Source of the DNA: a virus
Length of the DNA: 20,750 nucleotides
Strand: one strand, 5' to 3'
Virus record (IMG/VR): IMGVR_UViG_3300010157_000305
Span: 1 to 20,750 of that record
The notes beneath the pieces were generated by a model that had not been told where the DNA came from, made no database searches, and saw only the letters and a list, made by a program, of their open reading frames with translations. Within the stretch, counting starts at the first letter, position 1. Every line of letters begins with the position of its first letter. The position numbers were made by a program, and so were the translations under genes. Shown in pieces: positions 1,504-17,315 of this stretch.

Positions 1504-2696
1504 TGAATCAATTGACTGATTTTGATCAGACAAAAGATTTTTATTGTTCGCAAAAATTCTGGTGGCTGTCAGTAGATTTAGAAAAATTAAAAACCATGAG
1601 TTGTTGTGCGGCAACTCCTGCAAAGATCAATTTTGATCACATCAATCAAAATCCAGGGGATATTTTTAATTCGCCCGAAATAACAGCAGAACGACAACAA
1701 ATGCTGATGAATCAGCCAGTGTCCAGTTGTTTGTCGACTTGTTGGGTACCGGAATCAAAATCTCAAGTGAGTAGACGAATCTCTATGAAAAGTCACTTGC
1801 CCACTCATACAGCAACGTCAACTTCACCAGAGGTATTGCACATTGTTGTAGGGTCTGACTGTAATATGACCTGCATTTACTGTTGCAAATATTACAGTTC
1901 TGCCTGGACCAGGGATATCAACAACCACGGTGCTTACTCGATTGCCACCTCAGATGATAGATACATTCTGAATGATACTGATCGAGTGCTTATGAAACTC
2001 AGTCAGAAAGATATAAAAAACAATCGCTTTAATGACAGTTTACTCCACGAGATATCACACCTGGCAGCATCCCCAATGCTCAAAGAAATTGTTGTCACTG
2101 GTGGCGAACCTTTTTTATATCTGGGATTAGAAGAGTTGGTTTCAAAATTATCCGGCTACGGGATTCCTATAAAAATTTACTCTGGACTTGGTGTAAACAC
2201 AGAAAGATTTCTTAAAGAAATTGTCAAAATTGCCAAGTTTGCAGAAATAAAATTGGCAATCAGTGCAGAATCAACTGGCCGGCTGTATGAACTATTACGA
2301 AATGGTAACACTTGGAATCAATTTGAAAAAAATATACAAACTCTCAAACAACATGATGTTCCTTACAGTTTCCATGCCACAGTATCTAATTTAGCACTGT
2401 TAGGCATTGATGATTTTATCAATTATGCTGGAGATGTTGAAATTTTGTGGAGCCCTTGCTCCGATCCTGATTTCTTTTCAGTGAACATTCTTGATGATCA
2501 AACAAAGTCAAAATTAATAGAACAAATTTCTCAGTATCCTTTGCAACTTCAAGACATAATTAACACAGTATCCAATACATTTGTGCCCAGTCAAAAGAGT
2601 GGTCTTAATGTGTATTTGAAAGAATTTACAATGCGTAGAAATATTGATTTGAAATCTTTACCGTCGCATTTTGTCGACTGGCTAGAACAACAATGA
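1503..2696 (+). CDS. Radical SAM enzyme with N-terminal twitch/SPASM-like region (first of pair)
   Basis: The 397-residue product has the radical SAM 4Fe-4S motif CNMTCIYC (Cys120, Cys124, Cys127) and the SAM-binding GGEP at 200-203. Before it lies a cysteine-containing region (C15, CC34-35, C76, C80) with the FC..K.W/FNSPE/C...C spacing of a twitch or SPASM domain, which would hold an auxiliary cluster. In most SPASM enzymes that domain is C-terminal; here it is N-terminal. I choose ATG 1503, which overlaps the upstream TGA as TGATG; an in-frame TTG at 1500 is less likely. It overlaps the second enzyme by ATGA. Substrate unknown: peptide or RNA modification are both possible. The sequence is visibly AT-richer than uvsX, suggesting later acquisition. 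Confidence 0.88.
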   Translation: MNQLTDFDQTKDFYCSQKFWWLSVDLEKLKTMSCCAATPAKINFDHINQNPGDIFNSPEITAERQQMLMNQPVSSCLSTCWVPESKSQVSRRISMKSHLPTHTATSTSPEVLHIVVGSDCNMTCIYCCKYYSSAWTRDINNHGAYSIATSDDRYILNDTDRVLMKLSQKDIKNNRFNDSLLHEISHLAASPMLKEIVVTGGEPFLYLGLEELVSKLSGYGIPIKIYSGLGVNTERFLKEIVKIAKFAEIKLAISAESTGRLYELLRNGNTWNQFEKNIQTLKQHDVPYSFHATVSNLALLGIDDFINYAGDVEILWSPCSDPDFFSVNILDDQTKSKLIEQISQYPLQLQDIINTVSNTFVPSQKSGLNVYLKEFTMRRNIDLKSLPSHFVDWLEQQ

Positions 2697-3964
2697 AATC
2701 AGTTTTTCCTATCAACACAGACACAGCCTGCCAACTCAAGTGGACCTGGAGTACTATTTTTCTCAACAATGGCACAACCAGTTCCTGTCACAGAGTGGGT
2801 CGACACCCAATAGCACTGGAAAACTTTGATGACTTTCATAATACTCCCGAAAAACTAGAACAAAGAAATACAATGTTACAAGGACAATGGCCACAGCCGT
2901 TGCCTTACATGACTCCCAACGAAGGATGTCGTTATTGTGAAAAGATTGAAGCAGCCGGTGGTCAAAGCGATCGTCAATTTCATTTACAAGTGCCCGGACT
3001 AGTTCCACCAGAACTGGAACAAGATCCAACTGCCGTTAGAGTCACTCCCAGGATCTTGGAAATTTTTATCAACAATACCTGTAATTTGTCTTGCACTTAT
3101 TGTACACCATTTAATAGCAGTCAAATTCAACAAGAAAATCAAAAATTTGGTAGATTTGAAAAAAATGGACTGGTGATAGAATCCAAAAATATTGATAAAA
3201 ATCAAACTGCACTATACACTGAAAAGTTTTTTGCCTGGCTAGAAATCAACCATTTGCAATTGAAAAGATTACACTTGCTCGGCGGAGAACCGTTGTATCA
3301 AAAAGAGTTTTTTCGTTGCTTGGAATTTTTTACTAACAATCCCAACCAAGATTTAGAATTTAATATTGTGACCAATTTGATGTATGCTCCTGATAAATTT
3401 GAATCTGTGGTACAGCAGTGGAAGAACATGGTAGCAACAAGAAAAATCAAACGATTTGATATCACTGTGAGTTTGGACTGTTGGGGTCCTGAACAAGAGT
3501 ATGCTAGATATGGTCTTAAACTTGATGTGATTGAAAAAAATATCCAAACACTAATAAATAATCCTTGGATATATTTCAATATCAACAGTACCCTTAGTCC
3601 GCTCACTATAAAAACTTTTCCGGCACTGCTGGAAAAAATAAATCACTGGAAGCAACGACGCCGAATAAATCATCATTTTCAAACAGTCTTCGTGCCAGAG
3701 CATCATAATCCGGACATATTTGGACCAACATTTTGGAATCAAGATTTTGAGCATGCATTGAGTGAGATTGCCCAGGGCAATTGGCAAGAAAATATTTTTT
3801 ACGAGCATCTTAAAGGAATTCAGTTGCAAATTCAAAATAGTTGCGTCAACAAAGAAAAGATATTACAATTACACACACATCTCGACGAGTTGGATCGTAG
3901 AAGAGGTACAGACTGGAGACAATTGTTTCCTTATTTAGAAAATTGGAACAATCATGTGGTATAG
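2693..3964 (+). CDS. Radical SAM enzyme with N-terminal twitch/SPASM-like region (second of pair)
   Basis: The 423-residue product has CNLSCTYC (Cys130, Cys134, Cys137) and GGEP at 197-200. Its N-terminal region carries C13, C32 and a GCRYC pair (C79, C82), again laid out like a twitch/SPASM auxiliary-cluster domain placed ahead of the radical SAM barrel. The product differs clearly from its upstream neighbour, so this is an old duplication or two separate enzymes, not a recent copy. The start overlaps the upstream stop as ATGA and the end overlaps the next gene by 11 bp, so all are probably translated from one message. AT-rich like its partner. No precursor peptide gene is obvious nearby; the substrate is unknown. 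Confidence 0.88.
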   Translation: MKSVFPINTDTACQLKWTWSTIFLNNGTTSSCHRVGRHPIALENFDDFHNTPEKLEQRNTMLQGQWPQPLPYMTPNEGCRYCEKIEAAGGQSDRQFHLQVPGLVPPELEQDPTAVRVTPRILEIFINNTCNLSCTYCTPFNSSQIQQENQKFGRFEKNGLVIESKNIDKNQTALYTEKFFAWLEINHLQLKRLHLLGGEPLYQKEFFRCLEFFTNNPNQDLEFNIVTNLMYAPDKFESVVQQWKNMVATRKIKRFDITVSLDCWGPEQEYARYGLKLDVIEKNIQTLINNPWIYFNINSTLSPLTIKTFPALLEKINHWKQRRRINHHFQTVFVPEHHNPDIFGPTFWNQDFEHALSEIAQGNWQENIFYEHLKGIQLQIQNSCVNKEKILQLHTHLDELDRRRGTDWRQLFPYLENWNNHVV

Positions 3965-7691: not shown

Positions 7692-7720
7692 TTGCATTTC
7701 TCAACACAATCAACTAAAAT
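7692..7720 (+). promoter_or_regulatory. Early-type promoter (TTGCAT-17-TAAAAT) for uvsW
   Basis: TTGCAT at 7692-7697 and TAAAAT at 7715-7720 with 17-bp spacing. The -10 box ends 7 bp before ATG 7728, so the message would start at or next to the start codon. Each box is imperfect, but the same geometry occurs before two other genes in this window. Confidence 0.55.
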
Positions 7721-7727
7721 ACACACA

Positions 7728-9197
7728 ATGAAACAATGCACAATACAAATTAAAGACGAAGTAAACATCAAGTTGGAAGGCTTGGATTTGGATGTACGCC
7801 GAGCATTGGTCACTGCTTTCAAATACGAAAACCCAGCCGCACGTTACATGCCAGCAGTAAGGTTGGGACGTTGGGATGGCAAGGTTGCATACTTCCAGTT
7901 AGGTGGTAGCACCTACACAAATCTCTTGCCCGAAATTGTTCCCATACTTGAGAAGTTTGATTACGACATTGAACTGGATGATCAAAGAGAGTACTCGACC
8001 TCATTTGAGTTTGATCAAGTGGGCAAAGACTCATTTGCACATATCACGTGGCCCAAGGGACACCCTGCTGTTGGCGAGCCTATAGTCATGCGAGACTACC
8101 AGGTTGAGATTGTGAATAACTTCCTGGCTAATCCACAATGTCTCCAAGAAGTAGCCACAGGTGCAGGTAAAACCATTATGACAGCGGCCCTGTCAAATGC
8201 TGTGGCGCAATATGGTCGCTCAATCGTAATTGTGCCCAACAAGAGTCTAGTGACACAAACAGAAAAAGACTACATCAACATGGCTCAAGATGTGGGTGTT
8301 TATTTTGGCGATCGCAAAGAATATGGGCGCACACATACAATTTGTACTTGGCAAAGTCTAAATGTGTTATTAAAGAATACCAAGTCCGGTGTGGGCGAAG
8401 TGACCATCGGCGAGTTCTTGGAAGGCGTGGTATGTGTTATTGTAGACGAAGTACACATGGCCAAAGCAGATGCTCTTAAAACTCTCTTAACAGGCGTAAT
8501 GTCAAGGGTGCCAATTCGATGGGGTTTAACCGGAACCATCCCCAAAGAGAAGTTTGAAAGCCAAGCCCTATTGGTCAGCCTTGGTCCTGTGATTGGTCGC
8601 TTGAGTGCCAATGAACTGCAACAGCAAGGTGTGTTGGCCAACTGTCATGTGAACATTGTGCAGTTGGTTGATCATGTGGAGTATAAAGAGTACCAAAGTG
8701 AACTCAAATATCTCTTGGAAGAGTCGGGCCGATTGGACACCATGGCCGACCTCATACGCCGGGTAAACGAAACAGGCAACACATTGGTGCTTGTGGACAG
8801 GGTAGCCGCAGGGCATGCCTTGGTAGAGCGACTGGGTGATCGTGCTGTGTTTGTATCCGGTGCGACCAAAGCAAAGGACCGCCAAGATGAATACGACGAA
8901 GTTGCTGACTCAGCAGACAAAATTATTGTGGCCACATATGGTGTTGCCGCTGTGGGTATCAATATTCCGCGAATTTTTAATTTGGTTCTCATTGAACCCG
9001 GCAAAAGTTTTGTCCGTGTTATCCAGAGCATTGGACGTGGCATAAGAAAAGCCGAAGACAAAGATCACGTGCAAATTTGGGATATAACTTCAACCTGTAA
9101 ATTTGCCAAACGACATCTAACCAAACGCAAACAGTTTTATCGAGAAGCCAACTATCCATTCAGTTCAGAGAAACTTGAGTGGATGAAAATTGCTTGA
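7728..9197 (+). CDS. uvsW: UvsW, superfamily 2 recombination helicase
   Basis: The ATP-dependent helicase unwinds branched DNA and R-loops and helps regress and restart forks in T4-like phages. The 489-residue product has the UvsW N-terminal DNA-binding region (RLGRWDGKVAYF, residues 45-56), Walker A ATGAGKT at 143-149, DEVH at 240-243, motif III-like GLTGTIP near 266-272, a GVAAVGIN motif V near 405-412, and motif VI QSIGRGIR at 433-440. The length matches T4 UvsW (about 500 aa). The start is ATG 7728; the longer frame from 7692 would begin with TTG inside the promoter. No Shine-Dalgarno sequence is present. Confidence 0.95.
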   Translation: MKQCTIQIKDEVNIKLEGLDLDVRRALVTAFKYENPAARYMPAVRLGRWDGKVAYFQLGGSTYTNLLPEIVPILEKFDYDIELDDQREYSTSFEFDQVGKDSFAHITWPKGHPAVGEPIVMRDYQVEIVNNFLANPQCLQEVATGAGKTIMTAALSNAVAQYGRSIVIVPNKSLVTQTEKDYINMAQDVGVYFGDRKEYGRTHTICTWQSLNVLLKNTKSGVGEVTIGEFLEGVVCVIVDEVHMAKADALKTLLTGVMSRVPIRWGLTGTIPKEKFESQALLVSLGPVIGRLSANELQQQGVLANCHVNIVQLVDHVEYKEYQSELKYLLEESGRLDTMADLIRRVNETGNTLVLVDRVAAGHALVERLGDRAVFVSGATKAKDRQDEYDEVADSADKIIVATYGVAAVGINIPRIFNLVLIEPGKSFVRVIQSIGRGIRKAEDKDHVQIWDITSTCKFAKRHLTKRKQFYREANYPFSSEKLEWMKIA

Positions 9198-9732: not shown

Positions 9733-10044
9733 ATGGGGAAACTCAAGCCAGGTGCCACTCTCATTTACGAACGTGCTGACGGTATTGTATATGCTCGTGA
9801 GTCAGGTGCTGACCCTAGCACACGCCAGGTAGTGGGATATGAGAGCGGTCGTGAATACGATCCCATAACTGGTCATCGAATCGACTATGATTCAAGAACA
9901 AACGATGGTAGACCCTTGCGTGATCATATTCAGGAAGACAAACTGTGGGGAGAAATACGCCGAGCGGCCAGAACCAATCCCACTTTACAAGACGCACTGG
10001 AACGTGCTATAATGATCTATCAATTGAGCAAAGAACATGAGTGA
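9733..10044 (+). CDS. Conserved small T4-like phage protein (103 aa)
   Basis: It begins MGKLKPGATLIYERADGIVYARE and has a C-terminal helical part LWGEIRRAARTNPTLQDALERAIMIYQLSKEHE. I recognise the GKLKPGATLIYER opening as typical of a conserved small protein of cyanophage-type phages, function unknown. It starts 3 bp after the upstream stop and ends inside the start of the methyltransferase gene in an ATGAGTGA overlap. The sharp predicted split between a beta N-terminus and a helical C-terminus suggests an adaptor-type protein, but this is inference. Confidence 0.8.
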   Translation: MGKLKPGATLIYERADGIVYARESGADPSTRQVVGYESGREYDPITGHRIDYDSRTNDGRPLRDHIQEDKLWGEIRRAARTNPTLQDALERAIMIYQLSKEHE

Positions 10045-10045
10045 T
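10037..10045 (+). repeat. 9-bp direct repeat ATGAGTGAT, left copy
   Basis: It contains the ATG of the methyltransferase gene and the TGA of the gene before it. An identical copy is at 10632-10640. Recombination between the copies would delete the methyltransferase gene exactly and rejoin the flanking genes in the same overlap. Confidence 0.7.
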
Positions 10046-10639
10046 ATTAATAACAACGGGGACGATGTCTGGCAGTATATTAGTGATCATTTTTTACATT
10101 TGTGTAAAAATAAATCAGTATTAGAAATTGGCCCGTTTGATGGATGGATCAGTGAATGCATTATGGATCATGATCCTCGTAGCCTGACACTGATTGAGGC
10201 ACGTGAACAGTCAGTTGCGTTACTTAGATCAAATCCTAAACTAAAATCATGCCGTATTTTGTTAGGGGACATGCACCACGACTTAAATCAAATTGGTCCA
10301 ACCGAAGTGGTTGTGGTAATGGGAGTTATCTATCACAGTCATGCGCCACTATTATTTTTAGAAGAATTGGTTAATAACTGCAATCCTCAAACAGTAATAC
10401 TTGATAATCCAGGGAAGATTTTAAATTGGTTTGAAGAAGAAGTCAACAGTCCTGGTATGAGACACATTACAACTGATAGAAAAACTTGCGGAATTGTAAT
10501 TACTATACCAGAAGAAATAATACTTACCGCAATGAAACATCTTGGCTACCGGTTACATAAAAAACATGTATTGCCACAAACTCTTAGTTTGAAATCAAAT
10601 TCAGTGCCTGTATATCATTTTGAAAAAAATAATGAGTGA
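10037..10639 (+). CDS. Class I SAM-dependent methyltransferase-like protein
   Basis: The 200-residue product has the SAM-binding motif I VLEIGPFDGW at 28-37, the acidic post-I strand TLIEA at 51-55, a GDM.HDL segment near 77-82 and the motif IV-like strand VVVVMGVIYHSHAPL at 91-105. These fit the Rossmann methyltransferase fold; the GVIYHSH segment resembles small-molecule or tRNA-uridine methyltransferase-like enzymes more than DNA methyltransferases, which would show DPPY or PCQ motifs. Substrate unknown. The gene is AT-rich compared with its neighbours and is bounded on both sides by the same ATGAGTGAT sequence, each forming the stop/start overlap, which suggests a cassette added to an existing operon. 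Confidence 0.8.
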   Translation: MSDINNNGDDVWQYISDHFLHLCKNKSVLEIGPFDGWISECIMDHDPRSLTLIEAREQSVALLRSNPKLKSCRILLGDMHHDLNQIGPTEVVVVMGVIYHSHAPLLFLEELVNNCNPQTVILDNPGKILNWFEEEVNSPGMRHITTDRKTCGIVITIPEEIILTAMKHLGYRLHKKHVLPQTLSLKSNSVPVYHFEKNNE

Positions 10640-11750: not shown

Positions 11751-12107
11751 ATGATCAAAGCAATTCACGCCAGTGGTCGTTACATGCAAGTGATAGGCGG
11801 CAGTGCCAGCACTTATGTAAATGCCAATCCAGGTGCTCAAGGTGTTGGTAACTTGCGTTTCAACACCAGTCTCCAACGACTGGAAGTATATGATGGCAGC
11901 AGTTGGCAGGAACTGAACATGCCACATGCCTCCGTGGGGTTGAACCCAGCCGCTGAGGCAGTAATCGAATGGGCACAACGACAAATGACAGAAGAAAAAA
12001 GACTTGAACAATTGGCCCAAGAACATCCTAGTGTGGCAGATGCCTTGGAAGCAGTTCAGCAAGCACAAGAAAGAGTTAGAATAGTGGCAGCATTGGTACA
12101 AGAATGA
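11751..12107 (+). CDS. Conserved T4-like phage protein, two-part (118 aa)
   Basis: The first half is beta-rich with a fibre-like pattern (GRYMQVIGGSASTYVN...GNLRFNTSLQRLEVYDGSSWQEL). The second half is a charged helix (AAEAVIEWAQRQMTEEKRLEQLAQEHPSVADALEAVQQAQERVRIVAAL), a probable coiled coil. The LEVYDGSSWQEL segment is typical of repeats in phage tail-fibre and capsid-decoration proteins, so a virion role is likely though not proven. Relatives occur in cyanophages. It starts one base after the zinc-finger gene and overlaps the next gene by 4 bp. Confidence 0.8.
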   Translation: MIKAIHASGRYMQVIGGSASTYVNANPGAQGVGNLRFNTSLQRLEVYDGSSWQELNMPHASVGLNPAAEAVIEWAQRQMTEEKRLEQLAQEHPSVADALEAVQQAQERVRIVAALVQE

Positions 12108-12673
12108 GCGCAGACATTGACATTGACTTCGCCAACAGAGAGGATATACTGAAACTGATTCAGCACACTCCGGCACGGCAAAGCAACGGTCGCCGACACA
12201 ACTCAGGTGTGTATGTTACCAACATACCAAGAGATCCGGTTAACAACTGTGCGGCCTTGGACTACGAAACTGCTGAATCTCGTGGATACTTCAAACTGGA
12301 CTTCTTGAACATGAGCGTGTATCAGTTAATAAAGGATCCTGCACACTATGAATCAATGTTGATCAGTCCACCACCTTGGGAGCGACTATGGACTGATTGT
12401 GAATGGGCCCGGCAATTGGTACACGTGGGCAACTATACTGATTTGCTGGCATATATGAAACCAGATTCAATACCCAGGATGGCGGCCTTTATATCTATTA
12501 TTCGTCCAGGCAAAGCACACTTACAAACCCGACCTTGGGCCGAAGTGTTTGCGTCAGTTTGGGACGGAGATGACTCACAAGGTTACACATTTAAAAAGGC
12601 ACATGCTGTCAGTTATGCGGCTCTTGTGTCTTTACACATGAACTTAATCAACACGCCTGACCAGAGTAATTGA
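12104..12673 (+). CDS. Miniature DnaE-like (DNA polymerase III alpha related) protein
   Basis: The 189-residue product carries a run of C-family polymerase palm motifs in the right order, much closer together than in DnaE (about 1,160 aa). ADIDIDF at residues 3-9 matches PDFDVDF, which holds two catalytic aspartates; HNSGVYVT at 32-39 matches H.xGVVI; GYFKLDFLNM at 61-70 matches GLVKFDFLGL with the third aspartate (Asp66); AFISIIRPG at 128-136 matches ALYRPG; and YTFKKAHAVSYA at 161-172 matches FNKSHAAAYA. I recall cyanophage relatives. The PHP, thumb, finger and beta-binding parts are absent, so independent polymerase activity is doubtful. Its last 30 bp overlap the end of the opposing minus-strand gene. 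Confidence 0.82.
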   Translation: MSADIDIDFANREDILKLIQHTPARQSNGRRHNSGVYVTNIPRDPVNNCAALDYETAESRGYFKLDFLNMSVYQLIKDPAHYESMLISPPPWERLWTDCEWARQLVHVGNYTDLLAYMKPDSIPRMAAFISIIRPGKAHLQTRPWAEVFASVWDGDDSQGYTFKKAHAVSYAALVSLHMNLINTPDQSN

Positions 12674-13030
12674 TTTACGTTTGCTCTTCTTGCGAGCAAT
12701 GTCATTCAAACTGCAAATTGGGCCATGCAGAATTTCCAGATCTTTGTTGGCAAACGTTCTCAATGTGGGACGAAACGGATCCCACTCTCCACGCAAGAAT
12801 ATGTTGATGGGTATGCTTCTATTGCTTTCCCACCACCAGGTGTTGGCCAAGTCTATAAATCTGCGTTTGCTGTCCTGATCAGTCACTGCCCCAAAGTCGT
12901 AGATGGTTGTAATAGCATCATCACGATTTTGTACTATGCCCACGTATTCGTTGCTGGCGTACATGCACAAGGTTATAAACGGATATTTGTCTGCTAATTT
13001 TTGAAATAAGTCACTGCCCATAAGTTTCAT
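12644..13030 (-). CDS. Conserved T4-like phage protein, sole minus-strand gene
   Basis: The 128-residue product starts MKLMGSDLFQKLADKYPFITLCMY and includes NEYVGIVQNRDDAITTIYDFG, ANTWWWESNRSIPINIFLRGEWDPFRPTLRTFANKDLEILHGPICSLNDIARKKSKRKSITLVRR. I recall clear relatives in cyanophage-type genomes, function unknown. The very basic C-terminus suggests nucleic-acid contact. Reality on this strand is supported by an exact late promoter TATAAATA whose expected start point is one base before ATG 13030; a second ATG is at 13021. No ribosome binding site is seen. It meets the DnaE-like gene tail to tail with a 30-bp overlap. Confidence 0.85.
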   Translation of the reverse strand: MKLMGSDLFQKLADKYPFITLCMYASNEYVGIVQNRDDAITTIYDFGAVTDQDSKRRFIDLANTWWWESNRSIPINIFLRGEWDPFRPTLRTFANKDLEILHGPICSLNDIARKKSKRKSITLVRRVD

Positions 13031-14896: not shown

Positions 14897-15892
14897 ATGC
14901 TTGATATTGTTGGATATTGGAGACAGGGAAGAAAAGTAAAGACAAGCCCACAGGGCTGGCTGTCAGGCAATGCAGTCTGCTGTGTACACAATGGACATAC
15001 GGCTGACACAAGAGGCCGTGGCGGACTTAAAGTGTCAGATCAAGGATGGAGTTATTCATGCTTCAACTGCGCCTACACAGCCAGTTTTGTACTAGGACGC
15101 ACAGTCAGTTTCAAAGCCCGACGTTTGCTAGGATGGATGGGCGTGCCAGACAACGAGATTGACGTGCTCAATCTTGAAAGTCTGCGGCATCGTAGCATAC
15201 ACGGTATACTAGAAGATCGTCAACGAGTATTCAACACACTCAGTGCTATCGAGTTTGAAGAGTCAGATGATTTTCCACCATTCTCAGAAGTGGTCACTCC
15301 GGAACATCCACTGTACTGGAACTACATTCGCAAAAGAAAAGTACCAGAAGATTTTCCTGTAATGACCGCAATCAAGAATGATGGCGTTCATTGGGTGAGA
15401 CCGTTTGTGTTGATTCCATTCACATACGATAACCGGGCAGTAGGGTGGTGTACTAGATTTTTGGATGACAAACAACCCAGGTATATCAATCACTCACAAC
15501 CAGGCTATGTGTTTGGTACAGATCTACAACATGCCGACTGGCAACATGTACTTGTGACGGAAGGCATTTTTGACGCACTGTCGATTAGCGGCTTGTCGGT
15601 AATGCACAATACCATTAGTGATGCACAAGCAAGATTGATTCGCAGTTTTGGACGTGAAGTTACGGTGGTACCTGATCAAGATACAGCAGGCGTAGAGTTA
15701 ATTGACCGTGCTATGGAACTGGGATGGGCAGTGAGCATACCTGAGTGGCCCGAGGGTTGCAAAGATGTCAATGATGCTGTGATAAAACTAGGGCGACTGG
15801 GTGCCTTGCTGACTATTATGGCCGCAAGAGAAACTAGTAAAATTAAGATAGAAATAAGGAAAAGACAACTTGTTAAAAGATTACTCGCTTGA
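14897..15892 (+). CDS. 61: gp61-type DNA primase
   Basis: The enzyme makes the RNA primers for lagging-strand synthesis and works with helicase gp41. The 331-residue product has an N-terminal zinc-binding module (Cys28-x2-His31 and Cys55-x2-Cys58), then a TOPRIM catalytic core: EGIFDALS at 222-229, VPDQDTAG at 258-265 and KDVNDAV at 289-295. The ATG at 14897 follows the hydrolase stop by two bases and has no Shine-Dalgarno sequence. It overlaps the helicase gene by 23 bp. The primase directly before its helicase partner agrees with the assignment. The number 61 follows the T4 name; the zinc residues being CxxH...CxxC instead of four cysteines is worth noting. Confidence 0.92.
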   Translation: MLDIVGYWRQGRKVKTSPQGWLSGNAVCCVHNGHTADTRGRGGLKVSDQGWSYSCFNCAYTASFVLGRTVSFKARRLLGWMGVPDNEIDVLNLESLRHRSIHGILEDRQRVFNTLSAIEFEESDDFPPFSEVVTPEHPLYWNYIRKRKVPEDFPVMTAIKNDGVHWVRPFVLIPFTYDNRAVGWCTRFLDDKQPRYINHSQPGYVFGTDLQHADWQHVLVTEGIFDALSISGLSVMHNTISDAQARLIRSFGREVTVVPDQDTAGVELIDRAMELGWAVSIPEWPEGCKDVNDAVIKLGRLGALLTIMAARETSKIKIEIRKRQLVKRLLA

Positions 15893-17315
15893 AGTCCAAC
15901 GACTATTTCTAGAAATGATGTTGGAAGACGCCACAAGTTATGTGCGGGTTCAAAACATCTATAACGCACAAAACTTTGATCGGAGTTTGAGACCTGCGGC
16001 CGAGTTCATCAAAGAACACACTGACAAACACAAGACCATGCCCGACAGGTCACAGATCTCTGCAACCACAGGCATCAAACTTGCGCCAGTGCCGGACTTG
16101 AATGAAGGGCACTTTGACTGGTTCATGGGCGAGTTTGAAGCATTTACTCGACGTCAGGAACTGGAACGTGCAATTTTGAAGTCAGCAGACTTGCTGGAAA
16201 AGGGCGAGTTTGAACCAGTTGAAAAACTCATCAAAGATGCTGTACAGATATCACTCACCAAAGACATGGGCACAGATTACTTTGCAGATCCCAAGGCCCG
16301 TATTGAAAAATACTTCAACTCAGGTGGCCAAGTGTCAACAGGTTGGACACAACTGGATAGATTGTTGTATGGTGGTTTTAGCCGAGGTGAACTAAACATC
16401 TTTGCTGGCGGATCAGGATCAGGCAAGTCGTTAGTAATGATGAACATTGCGCTAAACTGGTTGCAACAAGGACTCAGTGGCGTTTATATTACACTAGAAC
16501 TTTCAGAAGAACTCACAAGTTTACGAACCGATGCCATGCTCACAAACATGAGCACCAAGGACATTAGGCGTGATATGGACACTACAGAACTCAAGGTCAA
16601 GTTGGTGGCCAAGAAGTCAGGCAACTATCAAGTGAAAGGCCTGCCAGCACAAAGCAACATCAATGACATTCGTGCTTATTTGAAAGAGTATCAAATTCAA
16701 ACAGGCAAGCGAGTAGACTTTGTGATGATTGACTATCTAGACTTGCTGATGCCTGTGAGTGCCAAGGTTAGCCCCAACGACTTGTTTGTGAAAGACAAGT
16801 ATGTGAGTGAAGAACTACGCAATTTGGCCAAAGAACTGGCAGTATTAATGGTCACTGCATCACAGTTGAATCGATCAGCAGTGGAAGAAGTTGAATTTGA
16901 TCACTCGCATATTTCAGGTGGTATCTCCAAGATTAACACAGCAGACAACGTGTTTGGTATCTTTACAAGCCGTGCTATGAAAGAGCGTGGCAAATATCAA
17001 ATTCAATGTATGAAAAGTCGTAGTTCAACCGGTGTCGGACAAAAGATCGATTTGGAATACAATATTGAAACCATGCGTATCACAGATGAAGGTGGAGACG
17101 AAAAGGACAACTTCCGTGGCGGTGCCAAGCCCAGCATTATGGATTCGATCAAGGCCAAAAGTCAAGTCAAAATCACTGAAGAAGGCGAGGCTAGTACACC
17201 ACCCTGGGAACGAGCCCGGCCCCGAGAAGACTTTGATCTAGAAGCACCCAAGGTCACAGCAGATGTGCAAAGTGCTAAGTTAAAACAGTTACTGGGGCAA
17301 ATTAAACAATCGTAA
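15870..17315 (+). CDS. 41: gp41-type replicative DNA helicase (DnaB family)
   Basis: The hexameric helicase moves 5' to 3' on the lagging strand at the phage fork. The 481-residue product is close to T4 gp41 (475 aa). The first ~130 residues are helical and form the primase-contact collar; the RecA-like core has GWTQLDRLLYGGFSRGEL, Walker A GGSGSGKS at 180-187, YITLELSEEL, Walker B VDFVMIDYLDLL near 282-293, and VTASQLNRS. I keep the TTG start at 15870 because AAGGA lies 9-10 bases upstream and the next ATG (15915) would cut into the first helix. It starts inside the primase gene, suggesting coupled translation. The acidic, Pro-rich tail is unconserved linker. Confidence 0.93.
   Translation: MLKDYSLEVQRLFLEMMLEDATSYVRVQNIYNAQNFDRSLRPAAEFIKEHTDKHKTMPDRSQISATTGIKLAPVPDLNEGHFDWFMGEFEAFTRRQELERAILKSADLLEKGEFEPVEKLIKDAVQISLTKDMGTDYFADPKARIEKYFNSGGQVSTGWTQLDRLLYGGFSRGELNIFAGGSGSGKSLVMMNIALNWLQQGLSGVYITLELSEELTSLRTDAMLTNMSTKDIRRDMDTTELKVKLVAKKSGNYQVKGLPAQSNINDIRAYLKEYQIQTGKRVDFVMIDYLDLLMPVSAKVSPNDLFVKDKYVSEELRNLAKELAVLMVTASQLNRSAVEEVEFDHSHISGGISKINTADNVFGIFTSRAMKERGKYQIQCMKSRSSTGVGQKIDLEYNIETMRITDEGGDEKDNFRGGAKPSIMDSIKAKSQVKITEEGEASTPPWERARPREDFDLEAPKVTADVQSAKLKQLLGQIKQS

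Follow-up and report, generated by a model that had tools for sequence, protein, structure and literature searches.

A split, minimal form of the bacterial DNA polymerase III alpha subunit (Pol III alpha) was described computationally from the group 2.2 jumbo phages, in which it accompanies a B-family replicase (Iyer et al. 2021, PMC7824862). In one such jumbo phage, CBB, a 'truncated' Pol III alpha of 172 aa had been reported beside a gp43 polymerase, the B-family enzyme CBB_263 (PMC5259590). The literature searched contained no bench follow-up of the split enzyme. Here we describe a new member, encoded by an uncultured phage whose genome is represented by a fragment of 20,750 nucleotides (the window; IMG/VR record IMGVR_UViG_3300010157_000305). 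As the split system and the same conclusion were published in 2021, the finding adds a member and a sharper anatomy, not a new kind of enzyme; what is added is the exact break point, the missing thumb and fingers segment, the conservation of the steric gate, strict synteny and data on selection.

The window protein, designated C-half, has several features in common with the published system. It matches PHROG 11778 over its full length and sits amid jumbo-phage gene content; it is a short C subunit that begins at the DxD strand, bears the metal-binding aspartates and has no further Pol III alpha domains (PHP etc.) attached; and its relatives carry a separate N subunit (PHROG 11127, here N-half) together with a B-family polymerase. 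It differs from the members of Iyer et al. in that its sequence is new and comes from an uncultured phage.

Anatomy of the C-terminal half

The C-half gene, whose start overlaps the 3' end of the preceding ORF by 4 nt, and its motifs are as follows:

12104 to 12673, plus strand: C-half (189 aa, ATG start, PHROG 11778), predicted C-terminal, metal-binding subunit of a split minimal Pol III alpha
12113 to 12130, plus strand: DIDIDF, residues 4-9; D4 and D6 correspond to E. coli D401 and D403, D8 to D405
12197 to 12208, plus strand: HNSG, residues 32-35; corresponds to E. coli HAGG 511-514, which follows the thumb; the intervening thumb is gone
12293 to 12301, plus strand: KLD, residues 64-66; D66, the third catalytic Asp, corresponds to E. 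coli D555, and K64 to K553
12503 to 12514, plus strand: RPGK, residues 134-137; R134-P135 corresponds to E. coli R639-P640 of the fingers
12590 to 12616, plus strand: FKKAHAVSY, residues 163-171, the steric-gate helix; H167 corresponds to E. coli H760

A sequence-only reading of the window had picked out this frame for five C-family signatures in DnaE order, and all five are present: ADIDIDF (residues 3-9, within an N-terminus that reads MSADIDIDF), HNSGVYVT (32-39), GYFKLDFLNM (61-70), IIRPG (132-136) and FKKAHAVSYA (163-172). The compression that it had estimated between the first and third signatures (about 57 residues, against about 150 in DnaE) is borne out by measurement, with 60 residues separating D6 from D66 and 152 separating D403 from D555 in E. 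coli DnaE.

A search with the single C-half sequence returned no match in Pfam or in the PDB, and Pol III alpha was reached solely through family profiles and structure comparison. PHROG 11778, annotated 'DNA polymerase', matches residues 3-183 (E 9.7e-47). A profile of 79 family members recovered nine PDB entries, all of them Pol III alpha chains, in which the DxD, third-Asp, RP and K-x-H motifs align in order; the E-values are weak (best 0.005), and the argument rests on motif order and exclusivity. We discarded an hhalign comparison of the family with an alignment of two DnaE sequences, as it put the DxD motif in the wrong place. The AlphaFold model of C-half (pLDDT 91.3, pTM 0.83) superimposes residues 1-188 on residues 460-841 of Taq Pol III alpha, with a Z of 9.8 and 3.1 A over 183 of the 189 residues (VIA-align), and its alignment begins at residue 399 of E. 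coli DnaE and at 969 of PolC. The top eleven structural matches are all C-family enzymes, followed by an unrelated chain at Z 3.5, and Foldseek agrees. Since both profile and model match Pol III alpha, C-half is, in its predicted structure, a C-family palm with the three catalytic aspartates in place and a portion of the fingers that includes the steric-gate helix; the palm homology proposed from sequence thus holds in profile and predicted fold alike.

With the DnaE enzymes of E. coli and Taq, C-half shares the palm fold, the aspartates equivalent to D401, D403, D405 and D555, an HAGG-like motif, the RP motif and the K-x-H steric-gate helix, all in the same order, and some 44 residues from W92 to R134-P135 align without net loss. 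It differs from DnaE in being thumbless, the 108 residues from D403 to H511 of E. coli being reduced to 26 between D6 and H32, and in having fingers that are 88 residues shorter between RP and K-x-H (R639-K758, 119 reduced to 31). The PHP domain gave no match in either half, and both halves also lack the HhH, OB and C-terminal domains of DnaE. The sequence-only reading had supposed thumb, PHP domain and fingers all to be gone; the first two are, whereas the fingers are retained in part together with their steric-gate helix. The core fold is shared with PolC as well (structural match to residues 969-1304), at Z 6-7 as against 9-10 for Taq and M. tuberculosis DnaE. The D405 position, which is Asp in DnaE-type enzymes and Asn in PolC (PMC3919608), remains Asp in C-half, unlike PolC. 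E. coli H760 is the presumptive steric gate against ribonucleotides (PMC8485763), and D431/R432 of mycobacterial DnaE1 adjoin the template backbone (PMC12641269). The latter pair is matched by position by C-half residues 11 and 12, which are D in 21/25 and R in 22/25 members of a set made non-redundant at 70%; the window protein has N11 at the mostly-D position.

The partner half and the point of division

In most relatives, C-half starts 2 to 5 residues ahead of the DxD motif and so lacks the helix that carries the GS motif (GRGS). A second gene, at another place in the same genomes, encodes that part of the palm as a protein of its own, N-half, of which the 'truncated' CBB protein is an example:

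L084:20975-21490 (phage CBB): N-half, 172 aa; PF07733 (34.5 bits) and PHROG 11127

PF07733 is the sole Pfam match above cut-off in N-half, and a profile of 27 N-half proteins matched exclusively Pol III alpha in the PDB. The CBB protein ends ...GLGRGSSVSSYCLYLIGLHLVDSIKYELDVNEFLKW, corresponding to a stretch of DnaE. The N-half model (pLDDT 80.6, with the first 75 residues less confident) aligns with Pol III alpha over residues 76-172, at best with Z 12.4 and 2.1 A; the first ~75 residues, for which there is no structural match, may serve to dock or to hold DNA. The N-half alignments end at residue 455 of Taq, 393 of E. coli, 413 of M. tuberculosis and 964 of PolC, and the two halves abut at E. 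coli 393|399, Taq 455|460, M. tuberculosis 413|418 and PolC 964|969. The same boundaries emerge independently from the N-half and C-half profiles. These abutting ranges make the halves adjacent and non-overlapping, and place the break after the GS helix and before the DxD strand, inside a single nucleotidyltransferase fold; unlike in DnaE, the phage palm is thus divided between two proteins. The sequence-only reading, which held that most of the palm was gone, had offered a choice between a reduced enzyme and a domesticated palm. As the GS-motif part of the palm is the product of a separate gene, the premise fails and the choice was wrongly framed: C-half is better described as one subunit of a split enzyme.

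The halves travel together. When C-half records were compared by accession, N-half was also found in 59 of the 60 listed phage records, the sole exception being PP728206, a 109-kb record. Among the larger IMG/VR contigs, seven carry both halves, in no case close together, and no fused form occurs among the fetched loci; of the relatives with long contigs, the closest (142.9 kb) has them 96 kb apart. A 262-kb contig (G015) has only C-half and a 192-kb contig (G028) only N-half, and both may be fragments. Pairwise distances in the one half follow those in the other (Mantel r 0.97 over 18 pairs and 0.82 over 11 divergent pairs, with no control gene), as expected from plain vertical, joint inheritance. 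Neither N-half nor a B-family polymerase was found in the 20.7-kb window, a genome fragment, and the presence of N-half in this phage is therefore inferred from its relatives. The sequence-only expectation of a B-family gp43 as main polymerase agrees with what the related phages carry, namely CBB_263 in CBB and a Pfam DNA_pol_B match in five of the seven contigs with both halves.

Other short or broken forms of Pol III alpha surfaced in these searches. Frames of 420-563 aa in three marine contigs gave weak N-half profile matches and were rejected as fused forms, since they encode another Pol III alpha, which is a single chain and lacks the PHP domain. In these marine C-half contigs this second, less reduced short Pol III alpha is encoded downstream of the DnaB helicase; the example at L266:9427-11082 (also L267 and L268, at contig edges) is about 551 aa long and matches PF07733 (146.7 bits) and the fingers family PF17657 (58.8 bits), and the nearest phage record for this type is LR756508, a 484-kb uncultured phage. 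A tblastn match in Bacteroides phage BS-TP1 was likewise rejected as a mini-polymerase, being a PHP-containing Pol III alpha fragment with the GS motif (gp3, L163:2825-4558). Its homology stops after FERFLLPER, very close to where the mini-polymerase is split, and about 75 intein-like residues follow, the intein reading being a guess.

Distribution, gene neighbourhood and conservation

By tblastn with a query coverage of at least 80%, C-half was found in 63 phage records, chiefly of jumbo myoviruses (RaK2, GAP32, CBB, 121Q, PA5oct, Atu_ph07, Phosso and SCTP-2), and at least 590 IMG/VR stretches encode it. The closest named relative of the window protein is that of Sinorhizobium phage Phosso, at 42% identity. 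A scan of a genome collection yielded five scattered MAG contigs, with bacterial and archaeal labels, and one ordinary full-length DnaE, from which the family appears to be phage-specific; a cellular origin was considered and rejected, the five contigs being read as probably wrongly binned phage contigs.

Both halves belong to T4-like replication neighbourhoods, as their flanking genes indicate. Around C-half, the conserved neighbours in the window are:

7692 to 9197, plus strand: UvsW-type helicase; upstream of C-half in all 35 loci with sufficient flank
12644 to 13030, minus strand: PHROG 11637 gene, 128 aa, no assigned function; convergent with C-half
14897 to 15892, plus strand: DnaG-type primase (T4 gp61-like); downstream of C-half in all 35 loci with sufficient flank
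15870 to 17315, plus strand: DnaB-type replicative helicase (T4 gp41-like); downstream of C-half in all 35 loci with sufficient flank

Of the 177 C-half loci whose downstream flank measures 1.4 kb or more, 174 have the PHROG 11637 gene in that flank, on the strand opposite to C-half, and its product is a possible functional partner of C-half. Downstream of N-half, for its part, come a GroES-like gene and a clamp loader of the gp44 type, in 40/40 loci.

Several other genes of these neighbourhoods deserve mention in their own right. The GroES-like co-chaperonin gene (L125:6762-7163) stands directly after N-half (L125:6001-6516) and is kept in all 40 loci, and in the same relative's N-half locus a radical-SAM-like protein with a CxxxCxxC motif (L125:8623-9738) adjoins the clamp loader. 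In the window, two adjoining radical SAM domain proteins (1500-2696 and 2693-3964, plus strand) are encoded between UvsX and a UvsY-like gene, and a methyltransferase-like protein (10037-10639, plus strand; DUF1698/Methyltransf_23 just below the Pfam cut-off) is encoded amid the replication genes.

Conservation of C-half is strict where catalysis would require it. In 210 of 210 sequences, some only about 31-37% identical to the window protein, D4, D6, D8, H32, G35, K64, D66, P120, A127, I133, R134, P135, K137 and H167 are invariant, so that the catalytic triad (D4, D6, D66) is kept as the sequence-only reading had stated, along with D8 and the RP and K-x-H motifs. A suspected stop codon in one member (contig G026) gave way, on direct reading, to a continuous frame with the full motif set. 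Against close relatives, C-half shows a dN/dS of 0.05-0.11, indicative of purifying selection, and in N-half the G-x-GRGSS-x-x-S motif is kept in 27/27 sequences.

Proposed activity and alternative readings

Taken together with the sequence comparisons, the models suggest that C-half forms the C-terminal subunit of a minimal Pol III alpha that lacks a thumb and is encoded by two genes, and we consider it probable that the pair is an active DNA polymerase. N-half, a protein of about 172 aa whose gene lies at a distance of tens of kilobases or more, would contribute the GRGSS helix, the part of the pol-beta-like nucleotidyltransferase fold that is predicted to bind the triphosphate. C-half would contribute the metals, the strand with two Asp, the third Asp, the Arg of the template groove, the RP motif and the helix of the steric gate. 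The halves would probably join into one active site, at a junction that corresponds to the short connection from FERFL to the PDxDxDF strand of DnaE, and so joined would probably add dNTPs to a primer. The most likely role would be short synthesis, such as extension of RNA primers, gap filling or repair, beside the T4-like B-family replicase. As thumb, PHP domain, C-terminal domains and a large part of the fingers are missing, such an enzyme would probably be distributive. It is a possible, if somewhat doubtful, extension of this proposal that the pair, with about 189 + 172 aa acting in trans, is the smallest known working C-family polymerase and is dedicated to extending primers or filling gaps beside that replicase.

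What counts against an active polymerase is the difficulty of accounting for how DNA would be held when the thumb and most of the fingers are missing; the same losses, which would weaken DNA binding, lend some weight to a domesticated, non-catalytic palm whose halves, assembled or separate, would serve a structural or regulatory function such as DNA or dNTP sensing or docking to the gp43 replisome. The related phages, moreover, already possess a competent B-family polymerase. We nonetheless regard this as unlikely: domesticated palms usually lose their metal ligands, whereas here the entire catalytic set is invariant in all 210 sequences, including a steric gate needed only for dNTP selection. 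That invariance, combined with purifying selection, argues for catalysis over a purely structural role, though short of proof.

Catalysis need not mean templated synthesis, as many enzymes use the pol-beta-like fold to add one or a few nucleotides to ends in repair or tailing, and the absence of a thumb would favour short additions. An active nucleotidyltransferase of this kind nevertheless sits poorly with the retention of the steric-gate His and of the template-groove Asp/Arg after the DxD strand, and with the placement of both halves' genes among replisome genes, and it seems quite improbable. Activity of the 189-aa C-half alone, as a stand-alone reduced polymerase, would draw on its possession of all three catalytic aspartates; we give it hardly any credence, as the GS-motif helix is missing from the chain and present as a separate, co-occurring gene.

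If the paired halves do form an active polymerase, the C-family catalytic core would work without PHP domain, thumb and most of the fingers, would tolerate a cut inside its nucleotidyltransferase fold, and would place two unrelated polymerases, one of the B family and one of the C family, in a single phage replisome. The exact break point and the conserved residues now at hand ease the design of a two-protein reconstitution.
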